In this document: positions 4,261-19,584 of the stretch, one piece after another | How positions within the stretch are numbered: position 1 is the first letter of the stretch | Layout: each line of letters begins with the position of its first letter | IMG/VR virus record: IMGVR_UViG_3300004097_000050 | Coordinates: 1 to 25,283 of that record | Strand: one strand, 5' to 3' | Length of the DNA stretch: 25,283 nucleotides | Source: a virus | Position numbers and translations under genes: made by a program | Notes under the pieces: model-generated | Databases searched by the model: none | What the model saw: the letters and a program-made list of their open reading frames with translations, nothing else | Told to the model about the DNA's origin: nothing

Positions 4261-6075
4261 TTATTTTGTTCCACTAAATAACCACATGTAGTCCCCGTTA
4301 GGGTCTTGCATGTTGTTTGATACGTTAGGATTAAATCTTGGTCTAGGAGCAGTTTTCTTACCCTTGTTATCCTTAGATACAAATCCACCATCGTAACTTT
4401 TATTATTGATTTCCTCAACATTCTGACCACCAGTGGTCCAACTGTTAAGTATCGCTTTATTTTGAGCCGTAGCTTTCTTAAGGTTTTTAAATGAATATTC
4501 AAGAACCCACATAGCCATACCCAATGACATAAGAAGGTCATCGTGGTAACCATCCATGTGGTCTGGTCTACCATTCTTATATATAAATGTTTTCATTTCT
4601 GAAACCATTCTTCTTGACCTAATCTTAACGAAGTTCTCTCTTAATACCTTTTCCATGTTTGAAATCATTGGAAGACGAACTCCATTGGCGTTGAAACCTG
4701 GCACCTTTTCATTCTCCTTAACCAAACCTAATCTAGATTGGTTAGCTAAAACCTTACCCATTGCTTGTTTATCATGATGTAATAGTTTCTTACTATAATC
4801 CAATTCAATCAACTTAAGTACCGTTGAGACACCCATACCACCTGTAATATCGACAACAGTGTATGCGTTGTACATATTACCGTAATCATATACATATTGA
4901 GCTAGTATATCTGGTTGTACTTTACCTTGATACTCCATTACTTGTTCCATGGTTGTAAAATCAATGATAACTATTGTTGAACTATCTTCACCATCACCTC
5001 TTGATACATCGACACCCATAATATATTTATGGTCCACTATAGGTTCTTCCCATATCCAAAACTCTTGTTCAACACCCTCAACGAATTTAGGGTCACGAAC
5101 ATTTTTCTTATCGTGCATTTCAATGGTCTCATCTTCAATAACGTTACCACCAGAACCTAAGAATGATACATCTAACTCCTGTGCAATCTTTCTAGAATTA
5201 TTATTAAGTGCCATACACATGTTCTCATACCATGTTGATGTTGGTTTCCAATCATCTTCAATTCTCTTAAGATAAGATTCAAGATTAAACTCAACTTCCT
5301 TCTCTACAATATCATCATTATCATCACCCTCAACTTTCTTGTACCATCTAAGGTCTTTATTGTATCGTGGGTCTTCAAACCAACGCATTTCAACAATATG
5401 GTAATTATTATCACCAGATTTAGATTGTTCGTATGTTTTATAGTAAAGTGGGTCCATACCGTTTGGTGTGGAAATTAGAATCACATTACCACCAGTAGAT
5501 ATTGATGACATGGCAGCTGCATATACAGCGTCACCATTATCAATGAAGGCTGCCTCATCAAATACAAGATATGTTGGTGTATATCCACGAAGTGCATCTT
5601 CCGATGTCGCAACGGCAATAACTTGTGAACCATTAGGTAATTCGATTTCTATCTTAGAATCAACAACGAAGATTGATTTTCTTTCGTTTTCTTCAGTACC
5701 ATAATAATCAGAACCCCATATCCATCTTGGTAATTGCTTTAGATAATCCTTAATACCCTTTAAAAATTTTTGTGATAATTTAAGCTTATTTGCAATTACA
5801 AGTATAACCTCTGGGTTATCCTTATCAGCAAAACCAGCTTTAACCGCCATATAAGCTTGTGTAGTGGTAGATATACCAGCTTGCCTTGGCTTGGTAACTA
5901 AATTATATCTATGTTTCTCATAAGCGTTAACAATCTGCCTTTGCCTTGGGAATAATTTGAATGGTACATACCCTTCCTGTGTCTTATCGAAAGTTTCTAA
6001 AAAGTTTTCGATAGCATAGATTGGGTCCTTCAAACAATTGGCATACTCACTATATATTTCGGCTCTTGTTAACAT
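4261..6075 (-). CDS. Terminase large subunit (T4 gp17-type), ATPase plus nuclease
   Basis: 604 residues: the DNA-packaging motor, which translocates DNA into the prohead using ATP and cuts concatemers. ATPase domain: a deviant Walker A, KPRQAGIST (62-70), of the terminase type; Walker B TYLVFDEAA (168-176) with catalytic E174; coupling motif III ISTPNG (201-206). Nuclease domain (RNase H fold): first acidic site IMGVDVSRGDGED (352-364, D355), second VVDITGG (407-413, D409), last YHDDLLMSLGMAMW (510-523). All motifs are intact. The tail after 530 is a polar, likely disordered extension. It follows a shorter paralog (6116-7021) matching only its ATPase half. The start codon is inside one arm of a perfect 14-bp inverted repeat (6065-6104), suggesting translational control or coupling to the paralog. 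Confidence 0.96.
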   Translation of the reverse strand: MLTRAEIYSEYANCLKDPIYAIENFLETFDKTQEGYVPFKLFPRQRQIVNAYEKHRYNLVTKPRQAGISTTTQAYMAVKAGFADKDNPEVILVIANKLKLSQKFLKGIKDYLKQLPRWIWGSDYYGTEENERKSIFVVDSKIEIELPNGSQVIAVATSEDALRGYTPTYLVFDEAAFIDNGDAVYAAAMSSISTGGNVILISTPNGMDPLYYKTYEQSKSGDNNYHIVEMRWFEDPRYNKDLRWYKKVEGDDNDDIVEKEVEFNLESYLKRIEDDWKPTSTWYENMCMALNNNSRKIAQELDVSFLGSGGNVIEDETIEMHDKKNVRDPKFVEGVEQEFWIWEEPIVDHKYIMGVDVSRGDGEDSSTIVIIDFTTMEQVMEYQGKVQPDILAQYVYDYGNMYNAYTVVDITGGMGVSTVLKLIELDYSKKLLHHDKQAMGKVLANQSRLGLVKENEKVPGFNANGVRLPMISNMEKVLRENFVKIRSRRMVSEMKTFIYKNGRPDHMDGYHDDLLMSLGMAMWVLEYSFKNLKKATAQNKAILNSWTTGGQNVEEINNKSYDGGFVSKDNKGKKTAPRPRFNPNVSNNMQDPNGDYMWLFSGTK

Positions 6076-6115: not shown

Positions 6116-7021
6116 CTAAATCACAAACCCACCCATCTCTTGTTGGAGTTGTTTTTCGTTATAATTAAGCATTATTCGCATTTTTTCATACCATTCATTT
6201 GTTGGTTTATAACCAGCAAGTATTACTTTATCATAATATTCTGGTAAAACCCCAATTAGGGTGTCGATTATTTTACCATCTATTTCAATAACCCATTTAA
6301 GGTCTTTATTGAATCGTTCATCATCCCACCAGTTCAATTCAATTAAATTGAAATTATTTTGACCGCAAACAACACCCATGAAAGTTTTATGGAATAATCC
6401 ATCCATACCATTAGGGGTTGAAACCATAATCAACCTACAACCAACAGCTAGTGAAGCATAAGTAGCCATAAATAACTCATCGTTCTTATCAATAAATGCT
6501 GCCTCATCCATTAATATATATGTTGGTGCCCACCCTCTGAATGCATCTGGTCTGGATGAGGTGACCTTAATCATAGAACCATTTGGTAATACAGCTTCTA
6601 CTTGATTGTCTACTATAAAAATTGACTTACTTTCATTTTCTTCTGAACCATAGTATTCTGAACCCCAAACCCATCTAGGTAAAGTTAATAAAAAGTTCTT
6701 CATCTTAGCTAACATATGTTTACCCAAATCTAACTTATTTGATACCACCATAACCAATTCTGGGTTGTCTGGGTCACTGAAAGCCACCTTATGTGACAAA
6801 TAAGCCTCACTTATAGATGATATACCAGCTTGTCTATATTTCTTAACTATATTTAGTTTATTTGTTTCGTAACCGTCTATAACTAGTTTTTGATTTGATA
6901 ACAACTTAAACGGTACATAATCACCTACCACGTTATTCCAAATCTTAAAATAATTCTCAATAGAATATTGAGGGTTATTAACACATTTAATGTATTCCTT
7001 TGTAATATCAATACTTACCAT
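6116..7021 (-). CDS. ATPase-only terminase large subunit paralog (no nuclease domain)
   Basis: 301 residues, aligning from end to end with residues 1-305 of the adjacent TerL at roughly half identity, for example LPRWVWGSEYYGSEENE against LPRWIWGSDYYGTEENE. The motor motifs are kept: Walker A-like KKYRQAGISS (60-69), Walker B TYILMDEAAF (167-176) with E173, and coupling motif VSTPNG (200-205). It stops at QQEMGGFVI, where TerL enters the linker to its nuclease domain, and only 40 bases separate it from the TerL start, so no decayed nuclease remnant exists downstream. Intact motifs and clean length argue against a pseudogene. It is the first gene of the packaging operon, after a terminator and a TTTG-N19-TATTTTCG promoter-like pair. 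Possible roles: a second subunit of a mixed motor ring, a regulator, or a recent duplication in decline. Confidence 0.9.
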   Translation of the reverse strand: MVSIDITKEYIKCVNNPQYSIENYFKIWNNVVGDYVPFKLLSNQKLVIDGYETNKLNIVKKYRQAGISSISEAYLSHKVAFSDPDNPELVMVVSNKLDLGKHMLAKMKNFLLTLPRWVWGSEYYGSEENESKSIFIVDNQVEAVLPNGSMIKVTSSRPDAFRGWAPTYILMDEAAFIDKNDELFMATYASLAVGCRLIMVSTPNGMDGLFHKTFMGVVCGQNNFNLIELNWWDDERFNKDLKWVIEIDGKIIDTLIGVLPEYYDKVILAGYKPTNEWYEKMRIMLNYNEKQLQQEMGGFVI

Positions 7022-13124: not shown

Positions 13125-13563
13125 AAAGCTTTAATGATGCGGCTCCACCTAACTCACCATGCTTTACAAGCATCTCCCCAAGTCTTTCGATTGATTGTTT
13201 AGTTAATATTGGACTAGTTTCATAAGCAGAAACAATAAGTCTCATCTCATCAACAAGACCTTCCTCAAATTTAGTAAGGGTATCAGCTTTAGCTTGGTTT
13301 ACTTCGTTGATTAATTCTTGACCATCAACAGCATCATTCTTAGTAAAGCTATATGCTTTAATCTTAGCGTTTAATACCACACCTTGACTGTCAGCAGTCT
13401 CGAATCTCATATAGTCTGTTTTAGATACATCGTTATACGTGTATGATGCACCGTGCTTAAAGAGTACGGTTAAATTTTTTCCATTCCATTTTGAGCCTAG
13501 AATATTGCTTGAATCATAGAGTGCATTTACTACTCCGTCTTTTTCTGTTCTTTTTACTAACAT
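13111..13563 (-). CDS. KTSC-domain protein
   Basis: 150 residues. Residues 10-75 match the pattern of the KTSC domain, a small beta-rich domain found in many phage and bacterial proteins: NALYDSSNILGSKWNGKNLT, then LFKHGASYTYNDVSKTDYMRF, and VLNAKIKAYSF. The C-terminal half (80-145) is helical and specific to this protein. The domain's biochemical role is not established, although some are linked to lysyl-tRNA synthetase or nucleic-acid proteins. It is the first gene of a two-gene unit with thyA (14-base overlap). Upstream is a strong host-like promoter (CTTG-N20-TATATTTG, 13604-13635), divergent from that of the Clp gene, which suggests expression by the unmodified host polymerase, probably early. 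Confidence 0.8.
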   Translation of the reverse strand: MLVKRTEKDGVVNALYDSSNILGSKWNGKNLTVLFKHGASYTYNDVSKTDYMRFETADSQGVVLNAKIKAYSFTKNDAVDGQELINEVNQAKADTLTKFEEGLVDEMRLIVSAYETSPILTKQSIERLGEMLVKHGELGGAASLKLCACD

Positions 13564-13603
13564 GTGTTTTAAGATTTACTTTTTTGTTATTTTCGTTATA
13601 CTC

Positions 13604-13635
13604 CAAATATACGCTATTTATTATTAAAAATCAAG
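13604..13635 (-). promoter_or_regulatory. Promoter for the KTSC-thyA unit
   Basis: Minus-strand CTTG (13632-13635), 20 bases, then TATATTTG (13604-13611), an exact TAnnTTTG -7 box of the Bacteroidota primary sigma factor. The identical arrangement occurs before the gene at 24489. Confidence 0.65.
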
Positions 13636-13667
13636 GTTGTTTTAATAATAAATTTGTAGTATATTTG
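13636..13667 (+). promoter_or_regulatory. Promoter for the ClpC-like gene
   Basis: Plus-strand GTTG (13636-13639), 20 bases, then TATATTTG (13660-13667). Its upstream box directly abuts that of the opposite promoter (CAAGGTTG, 13632-13639). The -7 box ends only 6 bases before the chosen ATG (13674), so the transcript would be leaderless or nearly so. Confidence 0.6.
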
Positions 13668-13673
13668 GAAGAT

Positions 13674-16190
13674 ATGAAGAGAGAAATAATACCAAAAGTA
13701 AAAAGAATCATCAATGACTCGATGGTTATAGCGAAAGATATGGATGATGTAAATGTTAGACCAGAACACATCACACTTTCGATAATAAAAAATAATAACA
13801 ATAAATGTATTGATATTTTAGAAGCCCTAGGTGTAGATATCAATATACTCTATGACTTAGTCTATGACCACTTAAACAAATCAGACTTAACACCTAGATT
13901 AGTTAATGCTAAGAAGTTAAAGAGACCATTCTGTAAAATAACCAAACTTATCTTTAATTCTGTTGATGAAGAGTGTGAAGGAGTTGATGATACTATGATT
14001 GACACCACACATTTAATGTTAGCAATCCTAAAGAATAATACACAAACTAAGAAGATTATATTAAATATGGGTGTGAATTATAAGAGTTTTAAACAAATGA
14101 TTAAACAAATGAGAGAAGATATTAATAATTCCACAAATGAAGATGAATATGATTTTGGTAACGAAGGTGGAACTGGTGGTAAAAAATCTAAGGGGAAAAT
14201 TAGTGCTACTAAAACACCAGTCTTAGATAACTTTTGTCGTGATATCAGCAAGGCTGTTGATGAAGGGAAGATTGACCATGTTATTGGACGTGAGAAAGAA
14301 ATCAAGAGAGTTTCACAAATACTATCTAGAAGAAAGAAGAATAATCCGATTCTTATCGGTGAGCCAGGTGTTGGTAAAACTTCCATCGTTGAAGGGTTAG
14401 CCCAACTAATCAAAGATGGTAAGGCACCAATAACACTTTTAGATAAGAAATTATATTCATTGGATTTAGCATCTATTGTTGCTGGTACAAAATACAGAGG
14501 TCAATTCGAGGAAAGAATGAAAGCTATCCTTGAAGAATTAAAGAAGAACCCAGATGTTGTTTTATTTATTGATGAAATCCATACAATTGTTGGGGCTGGT
14601 AATGCTTCTGGTTCTTTAGATGCATCAAACATCTTCAAGCCAGCATTGGCTAGAGGTGAGGTTCAAGTTATTGGAGCAACAACACTTGATGAGTTCCGTG
14701 AGAACATCGAGAAGGATGGTGCACTTACAAGAAGATTCCAACAAGTATTAATTGAAGAGCCAAGTTTAGAGGAAACAATTACAATACTTAAAAATATTCG
14801 TGATAGATACGAGGCACACCACAAGGTTACCTATACTGATGAAGCTATTGAGGAATGTGTTAAAATGGCTGATAGATATATTTCTGATAGAGCAATGCCA
14901 GACAAGGCAATTGACATCATGGATGAGGCTGGTTCATCAACAAATGTAAATGTTGAGACTCCAGAGGAAATAAAGGAACTAGAACTTAAGATAGATGTTA
15001 TCAAGGAGGAAAAAATGTTAGTTGTTACTAAACAGAAATACGAGAAGGCTGCGGCACTTAGAGATGAGGAACGTAAAATAAACGATGAGTTGACTAAAGC
15101 TAAGGATATTTGGATTGAGAGTATGTCTAAAGAACAAACTGTTGTTGATGTGGACTTGATTAGTGAGGTTGTATCAATGATGACTGGTATTCCATTATCT
15201 AAGATATCTACACAAGAAAGTAAGAAGTTACTTGAATTGGATACAGACTTAACTGGTAAAGTTATTGGACAAGATGATGCAGTAAATAAAGTTGTTAAGG
15301 CAATCAAGAGAAGTCGTATCGGAATTAAAGACCGTAAGAAACCAATTGGTTCATTCATTTTCCTTGGACCTACAGGTGTTGGTAAGACATACCTAGCTAA
15401 ATTACTAGCAGAGCATGTATTCGGTGATGAAGATAATCTTCTTAGAATGGATATGTCTGAATATATGGAGAAGTTCTCAGTGTCTAGACTTATTGGTCCA
15501 CCGCCAGGTTACGTTGGTTACGAAGAAGGTGGTCAATTGACTGAAAAGGTTCGTAGAAAACCACACTCAGTTATCTTATTTGATGAGATTGAGAAAGCAC
15601 ATGATGATGTATTCAATCTACTTTTACAACTACTAGATGAAGGTCACTTGACTGATGGACTTGGTAGGAAGGTAAACTTTAGAAATACACTTATCATCAT
15701 GACATCTAACATTGGTGTCAAAGAATTATCTCAATTCGGAACAGGATTAGGATTCAATACTGGTGCAGAGATTGCAAATGAGGAAGAACGAGCAAGAAAT
15801 ATTATCGAAAAAGCACTCAAGAAGAAATTCAAACCAGAATTCCTTAATAGAATTGATGATACAGTTATATTTAACGGACTTAGTTCAGAAGATATTCACA
15901 AAATCATTTATAATGAATTAGAAAACCTAGAAGGAAGGATAAATGAAATGGGGTTTGAACTTAAATTGGGTAAGAATGCTATAAAGTACTTAGCAGATAA
16001 AGGATATGACCCAGAGTACGGTGCAAGACCATTAGCTAGAACAATCCAACGATATGTTGAAGACCCAATTGCTGATGAAGTCTTATCTGGTAACGCATCA
16101 GAAGGTGATACACTAAGGATTGATTATGATGAAAAGTCCGAGAAGATAGTGATAAAGGTTATCAAAAAGAAGAAACCAAAAACAAAATAA
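13674..16190 (+). CDS. clpC: ClpC-type AAA+ unfoldase (Hsp100) with LGF loop
   Basis: 838 residues from ATG 13674; the frame extends to 13491 but that part overlaps the opposite promoter and reads as non-family. Domains: double-repeat Clp N-domain (1-145), Gly-rich linker (160-180), D1 with Walker A GEPGVGKT (229-236), Walker B VLFIDE (296-301) and LTRRF arginine-finger region (351-355), a short middle domain with a UVR-like segment QKYEKAAALRDEERKI (454-469) as in ClpC rather than the long ClpB M-domain, D2 with Walker A GPTGVGKT (565-572) and Walker B VILFDE (633-638), then FLNRIDD and the C-terminal GARPL region. LGF at 692-694 sits where ClpC carries its ClpP-binding tripeptide. ATP-driven unfolding, possibly with host ClpP, is expected. 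Followed by a strong terminator. Confidence 0.93.
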   Translation: MKREIIPKVKRIINDSMVIAKDMDDVNVRPEHITLSIIKNNNNKCIDILEALGVDINILYDLVYDHLNKSDLTPRLVNAKKLKRPFCKITKLIFNSVDEECEGVDDTMIDTTHLMLAILKNNTQTKKIILNMGVNYKSFKQMIKQMREDINNSTNEDEYDFGNEGGTGGKKSKGKISATKTPVLDNFCRDISKAVDEGKIDHVIGREKEIKRVSQILSRRKKNNPILIGEPGVGKTSIVEGLAQLIKDGKAPITLLDKKLYSLDLASIVAGTKYRGQFEERMKAILEELKKNPDVVLFIDEIHTIVGAGNASGSLDASNIFKPALARGEVQVIGATTLDEFRENIEKDGALTRRFQQVLIEEPSLEETITILKNIRDRYEAHHKVTYTDEAIEECVKMADRYISDRAMPDKAIDIMDEAGSSTNVNVETPEEIKELELKIDVIKEEKMLVVTKQKYEKAAALRDEERKINDELTKAKDIWIESMSKEQTVVDVDLISEVVSMMTGIPLSKISTQESKKLLELDTDLTGKVIGQDDAVNKVVKAIKRSRIGIKDRKKPIGSFIFLGPTGVGKTYLAKLLAEHVFGDEDNLLRMDMSEYMEKFSVSRLIGPPPGYVGYEEGGQLTEKVRRKPHSVILFDEIEKAHDDVFNLLLQLLDEGHLTDGLGRKVNFRNTLIIMTSNIGVKELSQFGTGLGFNTGAEIANEEERARNIIEKALKKKFKPEFLNRIDDTVIFNGLSSEDIHKIIYNELENLEGRINEMGFELKLGKNAIKYLADKGYDPEYGARPLARTIQRYVEDPIADEVLSGNASEGDTLRIDYDEKSEKIVIKVIKKKKPKTK

Positions 16191-18508: not shown

Positions 18509-18934
18509 TCACTTATGCAAATCTTTTCCTATATATTCGTGACTGAAACATATTCGTTTGTTGTCTGCATAGTGATTATTAAAGAGATTCTCGTGGGTAA
18601 CATCCTTTCTAAGCTTTCTATTTTTAGAGGTTGGTTTCCATAAGGGTGAGGTCTCACGATAGAAGCCCATGCGGGGGTGTGCAGTCCTTGAAAAATATCG
18701 ATGACCTTGGTTAAGGTGAATCTCTGCAATGGCATCTGAAAACCTTACACCAATACCCATACCTTGATAATCTGGGAGTATTACAGTTCTATGACCACGC
18801 CAAGCATTCTTGATGTAACCATTAGGCATTGTCATAGAGGCACCGAATGCAACTAATTGTCCATCCCAATACCCAGCATAACATCTTGATGCATTAGATA
18901 GGTCACCAGTTAAATAATGATGGTCTTTAAACAT
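18509..18934 (-). CDS. GNAT-like C-terminal half of an ABC-ATPase/acetyltransferase protein (frameshifted)
   Basis: 141 residues from the internal ATG 18934, but the frame extends without a start to the T9 run (18989-18997), adding TRPEIKIDVHRIDKSLWG. This is the C-terminal acetyltransferase-like part of COG2401-type proteins (ABC-type ATPase fused to a GNAT-like domain). Visible: MFKDHHYLTGDLSNASRCY, WDGQLVAFGASM, RTVILPDYQGMGIGVRFSDA with the G-x-G-hydrophobic CoA-type loop, and RTAHPRMGFYRETSPLW. The HHYL motif and fold are reminiscent of Mom-type DNA-modification acyltransferases, a weak analogy. If read by -1 slippage with the ATPase, the product is about 358 residues. Otherwise this half could be expressed from its own ATG, or the gene is broken. 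Confidence 0.75.
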   Translation of the reverse strand: MFKDHHYLTGDLSNASRCYAGYWDGQLVAFGASMTMPNGYIKNAWRGHRTVILPDYQGMGIGVRFSDAIAEIHLNQGHRYFSRTAHPRMGFYRETSPLWKPTSKNRKLRKDVTHENLFNNHYADNKRICFSHEYIGKDLHK

Positions 18935-19584
18935 TCCCCATAGGGACTTGTCAATTCTGTGTACGTCGATTTTGATTTCTGGTCGGGTAAAAAAAAACCG
19001 TCAGTGAACTCACCAACATCTGTATCTATAACCCAATCTGGTTCAATCCATTCAAGTATATCTCGATGACATGTGGATAGGACCACATTCTTAATATTAT
19101 TTTTCTTTACATAACGTGACAATGCAACAGAAGCAGCCTTAGCAACATTCCTATCAACCACTGAACTAAATTCATCTATTACCGCCCCATCCTTTATCTT
19201 CCTTGCTAAATCGGCTCTAAATTGTTCACCGTTGGATAAGAATTGAAATGGTCTGTACCATGCTGGTATTGTATTGAGACCAACAGCCATTAATCGATTC
19301 ATTGCGTCATCTGGTGTTTCGAAGTGTGATACGATTGCCCTACTATTGAACCAAATAGGCTCTTCTTCTTCTCCAAAGTCTTTTAATAATGTTGATTTTC
19401 CAGAACCACTAGAACCCACAATGACTCCAATACCAAATTCATTAGGTATCTCTGGTTTCATCCAAGGATATGTTTCTGACTTTCCGTTAGATGTACAGTC
19501 GAAGGCTTTCTCAGCCGCAGCAATAAACTCATCGTGGTAAATATCTACCGACAAAGGGGTTGTACTTCTAATTAACTTTATCAT
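18910..19584 (-). CDS. ABC-type ATPase half of the same split protein (COG2401-like)
   Basis: 224 residues as read. Walker A GSSGSGKST (57-65), an ABC-signature-like LSNGEQFR (116-123), Walker B GAVIDEFSS with the catalytic Glu (133-141), D-loop-like VVDR, and H-loop STCHRD (172-177). No membrane domain, so it is a soluble ABC ATPase of the UvrA/COG2401 kind rather than a transporter. From about residue 199 the frame turns into unlikely sequence (PDQKSKSTYTEL to the stop at 18910) because the T9 run at 18989-18997 throws it off. One more T, or a -1 slip, restores the GNAT domain. The start at 19584 follows an AT-rich TATATTTA box (19589-19596). Role unknown; DNA modification or repair are possibilities. 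Confidence 0.82.
   Translation of the reverse strand: MIKLIRSTTPLSVDIYHDEFIAAAEKAFDCTSNGKSETYPWMKPEIPNEFGIGVIVGSSGSGKSTLLKDFGEEEEPIWFNSRAIVSHFETPDDAMNRLMAVGLNTIPAWYRPFQFLSNGEQFRADLARKIKDGAVIDEFSSVVDRNVAKAASVALSRYVKKNNIKNVVLSTCHRDILEWIEPDWVIDTDVGEFTDGFFLPDQKSKSTYTELTSPYGECLKTIII
18989..18997 (-). other. Frameshift site (T9 homopolymer)
   Basis: Nine A on the plus strand (nine T in the gene) lie between the ABC ATPase and GNAT halves. A T TTT TTT heptamer is present. A -1 slip, or ten T, gives continuous family-like protein (GGT TTT TTT TTT ACC CGA CCA GAA). Confidence 0.75.

Follow-up and report, generated by a model that had tools for sequence, protein, structure and literature searches.

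Probable programmed recoding at the ATPase-GNAT boundary of a mobile-element gene family, with slip signals that differ among lineages

Introduction

The dnaX gene (tau/gamma) is a case of -1 frameshifting, with a slip on an X_XXY_YYZ heptamer and two products that have an N-terminal part in common, and transcriptional slippage at runs of nine U or nine A is known from mxiE of Shigella and dnaX of Thermus, a run of about nine being the length at which slippage by the polymerase becomes efficient. In gpG/gpGT of phage lambda, as presented in the accessible part of PMC5009743, a -1 slip on a heptamer of this form likewise gives products with a shared N-terminal part. In prfB the +1 signal is made up of AGGGGG, then CTTT at a distance of three bases, and a C that is conserved behind the stop codon (available sections of PMC12421855 and PMC8710568). 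In the accessible literature programmed frameshifts of phages are found mostly in tail-assembly genes, and the Shine-Dalgarno (SD)-CTT +1 signal is described from prfB.

Here we describe the joint of a viral gene that couples an ABC-type ATPase to a GNAT domain. Acylation of a DNA base has been predicted for a GNAT coupled to an ABC ATPase (PMC7824862), and the example given there, QAX98348.1, is the record gene of one of our hits (H1, locus L053), a relative of our gene in which the two domains are the same and follow each other in the same way. The available text of that work describes a fusion and makes no mention of recoding, whereas the joint examined here is very probably recoded. Our literature search, which covered main texts outside subscription, found no paper linking this family to frameshifting; nor was the family found in the main text of the GeneTack clusters (PMC3711429), where an unnamed cluster may include it.

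Results and Discussion

The gene and its joint

The window, that is, the whole stretch of DNA analysed, comprises 25,283 nucleotides of a viral record (IMGVR_UViG_3300004097_000050). On its minus strand the ATPase and GNAT halves lie in different frames joined at a T9 run (Table 1), as the original prediction had proposed; frames and codons bear this out, and the range it gave, 18509-19584, was exact. At the joint the zero frame reads GGT TTT TTT TTA CCC, with the heptamers U_UUU_UUU at 18997-18991 and U_UUU_UUA at 18994-18988. Ribosomes reading the run normally would keep the frame and make the ATPase alone, the last 25 residues of its 224 being a tail encoded by the frame overlap, and a fraction of them would enter the -1 frame. 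After a -1 slip the A is re-read and followed by ACC CGA CCA GAA (TRPEIKIDVHR...), which gives a 358-aa ATPase-GNAT fusion, ...DGFFL-TRPEIKIDVHR..., ending at the TGA at 18511-18509. That such a slip restores the linker and the domain, also part of the prediction, agrees with the alignment of the -1 frame linker (RPxIxIxIYR) with that of true fusions. Within the GNAT frame of the window no ATG, GTG or TTG occurs ahead of 18934.

Table 1. Features of the ATPase-GNAT gene in the window.
Feature	Position	Strand	Details
Zero-frame ORF, ABC-type ATPase alone	19584-18910	minus	224 aa; ORF list
T9 run (A9 on + strand)	18989-18997	minus	letters; identical in near-identical contig
Tandem overlapping in-phase heptamers, proposed -1 slip site	18988-18997	minus	sequence; codon conservation
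-1 frame, linker and GNAT domain	18509-18988	minus	159 codons from ACC, then TGA
Zero-frame stop TAA, end of ATPase-alone product	18910-18912	minus	overlaps GNAT His-His-Tyr-Leu motif
ATG within GNAT frame	18932-18934	minus	sole ordinary start upstream of GNAT core

The gene, which may be of the COG2401 type, matches a single PHROG profile (phrog_11143, 357 positions) with adjoining parts, the ATPase half covering 9-194 and the GNAT half 200-352. It has the N-terminal ABC-type P-loop ATPase and the C-terminal GNAT with conserved HHYL and QGxGxG that characterize this family. Pfam searches bear out both domains, with a match of the ATPase half to ABC_tran (6.5e-05), and structures modelled with AlphaFold from alignments that included relatives (pLDDT 92.6 for the ATPase, 83.7 for the GNAT) had ABC cassettes as best PDB matches of the former and GNAT acetyltransferases as matches of the latter. 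PADLOC and NCBIfam searches gave no specific family for the gene. ParB-like genes adjoin the family gene in several phages and formyltransferase-like genes neighbour it in two, which would fit a DNA-modification cassette, and the predicted function remains the acyl modification of DNA bases put forward in the accessible text of PMC7824862. The simplest use of two products would be a complex in which only a few of the many ATPase subunits bear a GNAT domain, and the stoichiometry of a predicted DNA-modification enzyme thus becomes a testable question. Elsewhere in the window there are two adjoining terminase-large-subunit-like ORFs on the minus strand (6116-7021 and 4261-6075); by eye, the 301-aa product of the former is similar to the first half of the 604-aa product of the latter and looks like a truncated duplicate.

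Conservation of the joint in the window group

As a run by itself T9 was rejected as remarkable. Runs of nine A or T are not exceptional in the window (3 of at least 9 nt vs 2.3 expected from shuffling), and the weight of the case therefore lies in the conservation among relatives. One of these, contig IMGVR_UViG_3300028844_005117, is 99.9% identical to the window and has the same T9 and the same frame; over the compared stretch the two differ elsewhere by 11 mismatches and an 84-nt gap. What is absent from this contig (L010/L001) is window 14632-14715, 28 codons inside a ClpA/B-like ORF (13491-16190, plus strand). No near-identical DNA was found among named phages.

A search with the GNAT half retrieved 40 loci. 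Among the 42 distinct junctions of the window group, 35 have T9 and the -1 relation, and four more keep this relation and the same phase with a junction of only four T (A_AAT_TTT in three, G_GAT_TTT alone in L023); these four cannot be homopolymer errors. Upstream of the joint, pairs of sequences differ at rates of 0.27, 0.10 and 0.51 at codon positions 1, 2 and 3, the pattern of a sequence that codes in the zero frame, whereas the third positions of the slip codons GGT TTT TTT are invariant or nearly so. In 34 of the 39 distinct -1 junctions there is no ATG, GTG or TTG in the GNAT frame before the GNAT core. Counting against recoding, two members of the group (L038 and L092) have T10 and are fused in one frame; L102 is also in one frame. 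In these two T10 genes the fusion would be the default, a -1 slip would stop after 17 and 3 codons, respectively, and a +1 shift would yield the usual ATPase tail.

Our reading is that the T9 joint is very probably a programmed recoding site yielding both the ATPase alone and the ATPase-GNAT fusion, a view that rests on comparison of sequences. The programmed shift that figured among the options of the original prediction is in this way strongly supported, dozens of diverged contigs having the -1 relation where the slippery run stands.

The joint across the family

We gathered 308 loci with ATPase and GNAT profiles and from phage records, 309 records with the window, near-copies included. The two domains are fused in frame in 188, in the -1 relation in 108 and in the +1 relation in three, the rest being four in one frame but interrupted and six incomplete, which lacked one domain and were dropped before the counts. 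A quick tree, whose deep nodes are weak, was made from 293 records reduced to 195 rows at 90% identity. The window clade (34 rows, SH-aLRT 100) contains 28 U-run joints, three A_AAT_TTT (L016, L025 and L026), one G_GAT_TTT and two in frame. A second clade (14 rows, SH-aLRT 99), mainly of Flavobacteriales isolates and MAGs and mostly chromosomal, has A9 or A10 at the same joint, all of them -1, in 13 rows and A8 in one, and includes isolate genomes of Chryseobacterium, Flavobacterium and Bizionia. The tree requires at least eight changes between in-frame and shifted states, that is, the state has changed repeatedly. A slippery heptamer stands at the joint of 49 of the 56 distinct -1 genes vs 6 of the 135 in-frame genes, the rates in control windows being 0.078 and 0.043.

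Other members of the -1 group differ in their joints. The marine contigs L002-L006 have TAATG or TGATG stop-start joints, the Firmicutes phages L051 and L055-L059 have less clear signals, and A_AAA_AAG with six A occurs in L058, L002 and L392. Depending on the member, the same boundary would thus be recoded by a signal like that of RF2 (+1), by an A9/A10 -1 site, by A_AAA_AAG or by a stop-start overlap. Phage records annotate several of the shifted genes as two genes, and ATPase/GNAT genes annotated as 'split' or 'frameshifted' may well be intact. Most relatives are plain fusions, so the ATPase alone may not be needed everywhere.

Some individual cases are worth recording. L299 (Riemerella columbipharyngis) and L314 have A8 in place of A9, with which a -1 slip would not put the GNAT in frame; an off-state, decay or polymerase slippage are candidate explanations. 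The gene of Tenacibaculum phage pT24 (L052), annotated as two genes, is in one frame with a stop codon within the GNAT part. Matches were obtained in 6 of 197 in the family survey, and three genome surveys, in which the genome of the query itself was counted, gave too few for a fresh set (1 of 369, 1 of 396 and 3 of 395).

A putative +1 signal in the fused relatives

At the place where the window clade has its run, the fused relatives have AGGGGG, CGGGGG, GGGAGG or CGGAGG, three bases, and CTT, followed by CGG, CGA, AGG, TGG or CAT and then C. The likeness to prfB is evident when the E. coli site, AGGGGGUAUCUUUGAC, is set beside that of the in-frame relative L183, AGGGGGTATCTTCGGC: both have the AGGGGG-like SD, the 3-nt spacer, the CTT and the C after the next codon (prfB according to the available sections of the sources above). 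In the best SD duplex over ten joint positions, 3 nt before the codon, 81% of 135 in-frame genes reach -8 kcal/mol or lower, a level reached by 1.75% of 1,485 ten-position control windows. Elsewhere in the in-frame genes there are 87 strong SDs, and three of them precede CTT. Of the 99 genes with a Leu codon at the joint, 88 have CTT as the nearest one, whereas CTT makes up 17% of 3,355 other Leu codons.

The full pattern (SD hexamer, 3-nt spacer, CTT) was present in 86 of 133 joints and at none of 41,239 control codon positions, and the hexamer stood exactly 3 nt before the slip codon in 125 of the 133; these counts, from which two T10 genes were left out, refer to a pattern written after the sequences had been seen. 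For this reason we froze the pattern and applied it to a fresh set of 80 loci, 79 of them complete, 56 new at 90% and 53 in frame. SD plus CTT was found in 34 of the 53 vs 2 of 14,704 control positions, and the SD alone, at the same distance, in 43 of the 53 vs 32 of 14,704, although all these joint counts come from related sequences and are not sets of independent events. CTT is absent in about a third of the joints, the slip codon then being GAA, GTT, CAT, CAA or others. Tests on Arg/Gly codons were discarded as circular, the sites having been chosen by the pattern.

There are clear differences from prfB. UGA is absent from the A site of the in-frame joints, which have sense codons there (CGG, AGG, CGA, TGG, CAA), unlike prfB, and a shift in the relatives would shorten the product and would take place with no in-frame stop codon to drive it. 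The signal may therefore work like that of prfB, yet it is not strictly a prfB-type site. A +1 shift at the fused joint would lead into a frame equivalent to the zero frame of the window clade, which most often ends 24-30 codons further on at a stop supplied by the GNAT HHYL codons (31 of the 135 genes have tails longer than 45). Judging from these frames, the +1 signal should divert some ribosomes of the fused genes to the ATPase alone, the direction being deduced, and both kinds of gene, +1 and -1, would yield the same two products but differ in which of them is the default. In one Moraxella MAG (L248) the SD-like hexamer contains G6 instead of the G5 of its relatives, which puts the GNAT in the +1 frame; this is either an error or a true +1-dependent fusion.

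Agent of the proposed -1 slip and other explanations

The likeliest agent at T9 would be -1 ribosomal slippage on the tandem U_UUU_UUU/U_UUU_UUA. The downstream coding frame lies at -1 and overlaps the upstream one, and there is an in-phase X_XXY_YYZ heptamer conserved beyond coding need. As in dnaX and gpG/gpGT, the slip would take place on X_XXY_YYZ with a shared N-terminal part, and A_AAA_AAG occurs in relatives of the window gene; here, as in gpGT, the slip would give the long form, whereas in dnaX it gives the short one. Unlike both, this is a different gene in which neither an SD nor a stem-loop stimulator, which are not obligatory for the class, was found. Folding methods that cover structures other than pseudoknots found no stem-loop downstream of the window joint (z = +1.40), and 38 sequences had no compensatory pairs there; L014 (ATPase partly deleted), L038, L092 and L102 were left out of the joint and structure analyses. 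In E. coli, heptamers with no stimulator reach only about 0.3% at best (available part of PMC4066793), so that a stimulator that escaped notice, or else slippage by the polymerase, may be required.

Insertion of an extra U at T9 by RNA polymerase in some transcripts, with ordinary ribosomes then making the fusion, would still be a programmed event, and we regard it as a possible, though less probable, agent that may also contribute. Run length speaks for the polymerase: it is exactly nine in 35 of the 42 distinct junctions, the A-run clade has 9-10, and a single heptamer would require less. The missing ribosomal stimulator points the same way. The length is that of the runs in mxiE and Thermus dnaX. 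The accessible part of PMC4066793 discusses transcriptional slippage at AAAAAAA and UUUUUUU within genes of E. coli. However, the four members with A_AAT_TTT or G_GAT_TTT are too short to slip on and keep the frame relation without a homopolymer, unlike the mxiE and dnaX cases, the three A_AAA_AAG members have only six A, and the phase is always that of the ribosomal heptamer. We thus consider the ribosome the likelier of the two.

Two proteins made by coupling, the ATPase ending at its TAA and translation restarting at the ATG at 18934 on a short GNAT, appear improbable. An ATG is present at the matching place in 35 of the 39 distinct -1 junctions, with TTG or GTG in two more, and stop-start joints do occur in L002-L006, but a GNAT begun at this ATG would lack the conserved first strand (RPxIxIxI), no start exists at that place in L090 or L101, SD is unused in the window clade, and the -1 frame upstream of the ATG encodes a conserved linker like that of true fusions. 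A broken gene or a sequencing or assembly error, both raised by the original prediction, are very unlikely and unsupported, for although A/T runs are prone to error and mutation, T10 relatives exist and pT24 has its interrupted GNAT, another contig of this virus species agrees with the window in T9 and frame despite its differences elsewhere, T9 recurs in 33 or more further distinct junctions, and both frames are open and conserved, also in members without a homopolymer.

Signals and the use of Shine-Dalgarno sequences

The homopolymer -1 clades belong to genomes without SD usage. On ORFs within the loci, an SD precedes 0.7% of gene starts in the window clade vs 1.0% after shuffling (299 genes), and 4.5% vs 4.5% in the Flavobacteriales-type clade (89 genes). 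The corresponding values are 28% vs 12% for in-frame loci (674 genes), 40% vs 13% for stop-start loci (47 genes) and 44% vs 8% for Firmicutes-type loci (25 genes). According to the available text of PMC8710568, the anti-SD is occluded in Bacteroidia ribosomes, and the Weeksellaceae, which include Chryseobacterium, have an altered anti-SD and uniformly lack the prfB frameshift. An SD-driven +1 shift would be poor in such hosts, while a homopolymer -1 site needs no SD. However, the same source reports that the prfB frameshift is kept in many other Bacteroidia, so that the barrier is not absolute. We infer a Bacteroidota host for the window virus from its missing SD usage and A-rich start regions; Bacteroidota-type promoters gave no signal in the window (2 matches vs 1.86 expected).

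Our best reading of these sequence patterns is that recoding at the domain boundary would be SD-dependent and +1 in most lineages and has been replaced here by an SD-independent -1 slip. Probably, then, a mobile-element family is recoded at its domain boundary to give both products, with a mechanism that tracks the host ribosome, SD-driven +1 having been swapped several times for -1. The RF2-type +1 shift would thus operate outside prfB in SD-using hosts, and -1 slippage, on a homopolymer or X_XXY_YYZ, above all in hosts with an occluded or altered anti-SD. Phage and bacterial lineages alike seem to retain the two products, while their signals alternate between +1 and -1 according to host SD use; this amounts to a natural experiment on the requirements of recoding.

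Counting against such a swap, the two domains are in one frame in some members from Bacteroidota, such as a Porphyromonas phage (L066) and Dysgonomonas (L306); in these and similar contigs the SD is lost and CTT CGG is kept, with no shift. P12024S of Nonlabens is a plain fusion. Two genomes have two copies of the gene, all four with A-run -1 joints: Chryseobacterium sp. ZHDP1 (L286 and L297) and Flavobacterium sp. UMI-01 (L278 and L283).
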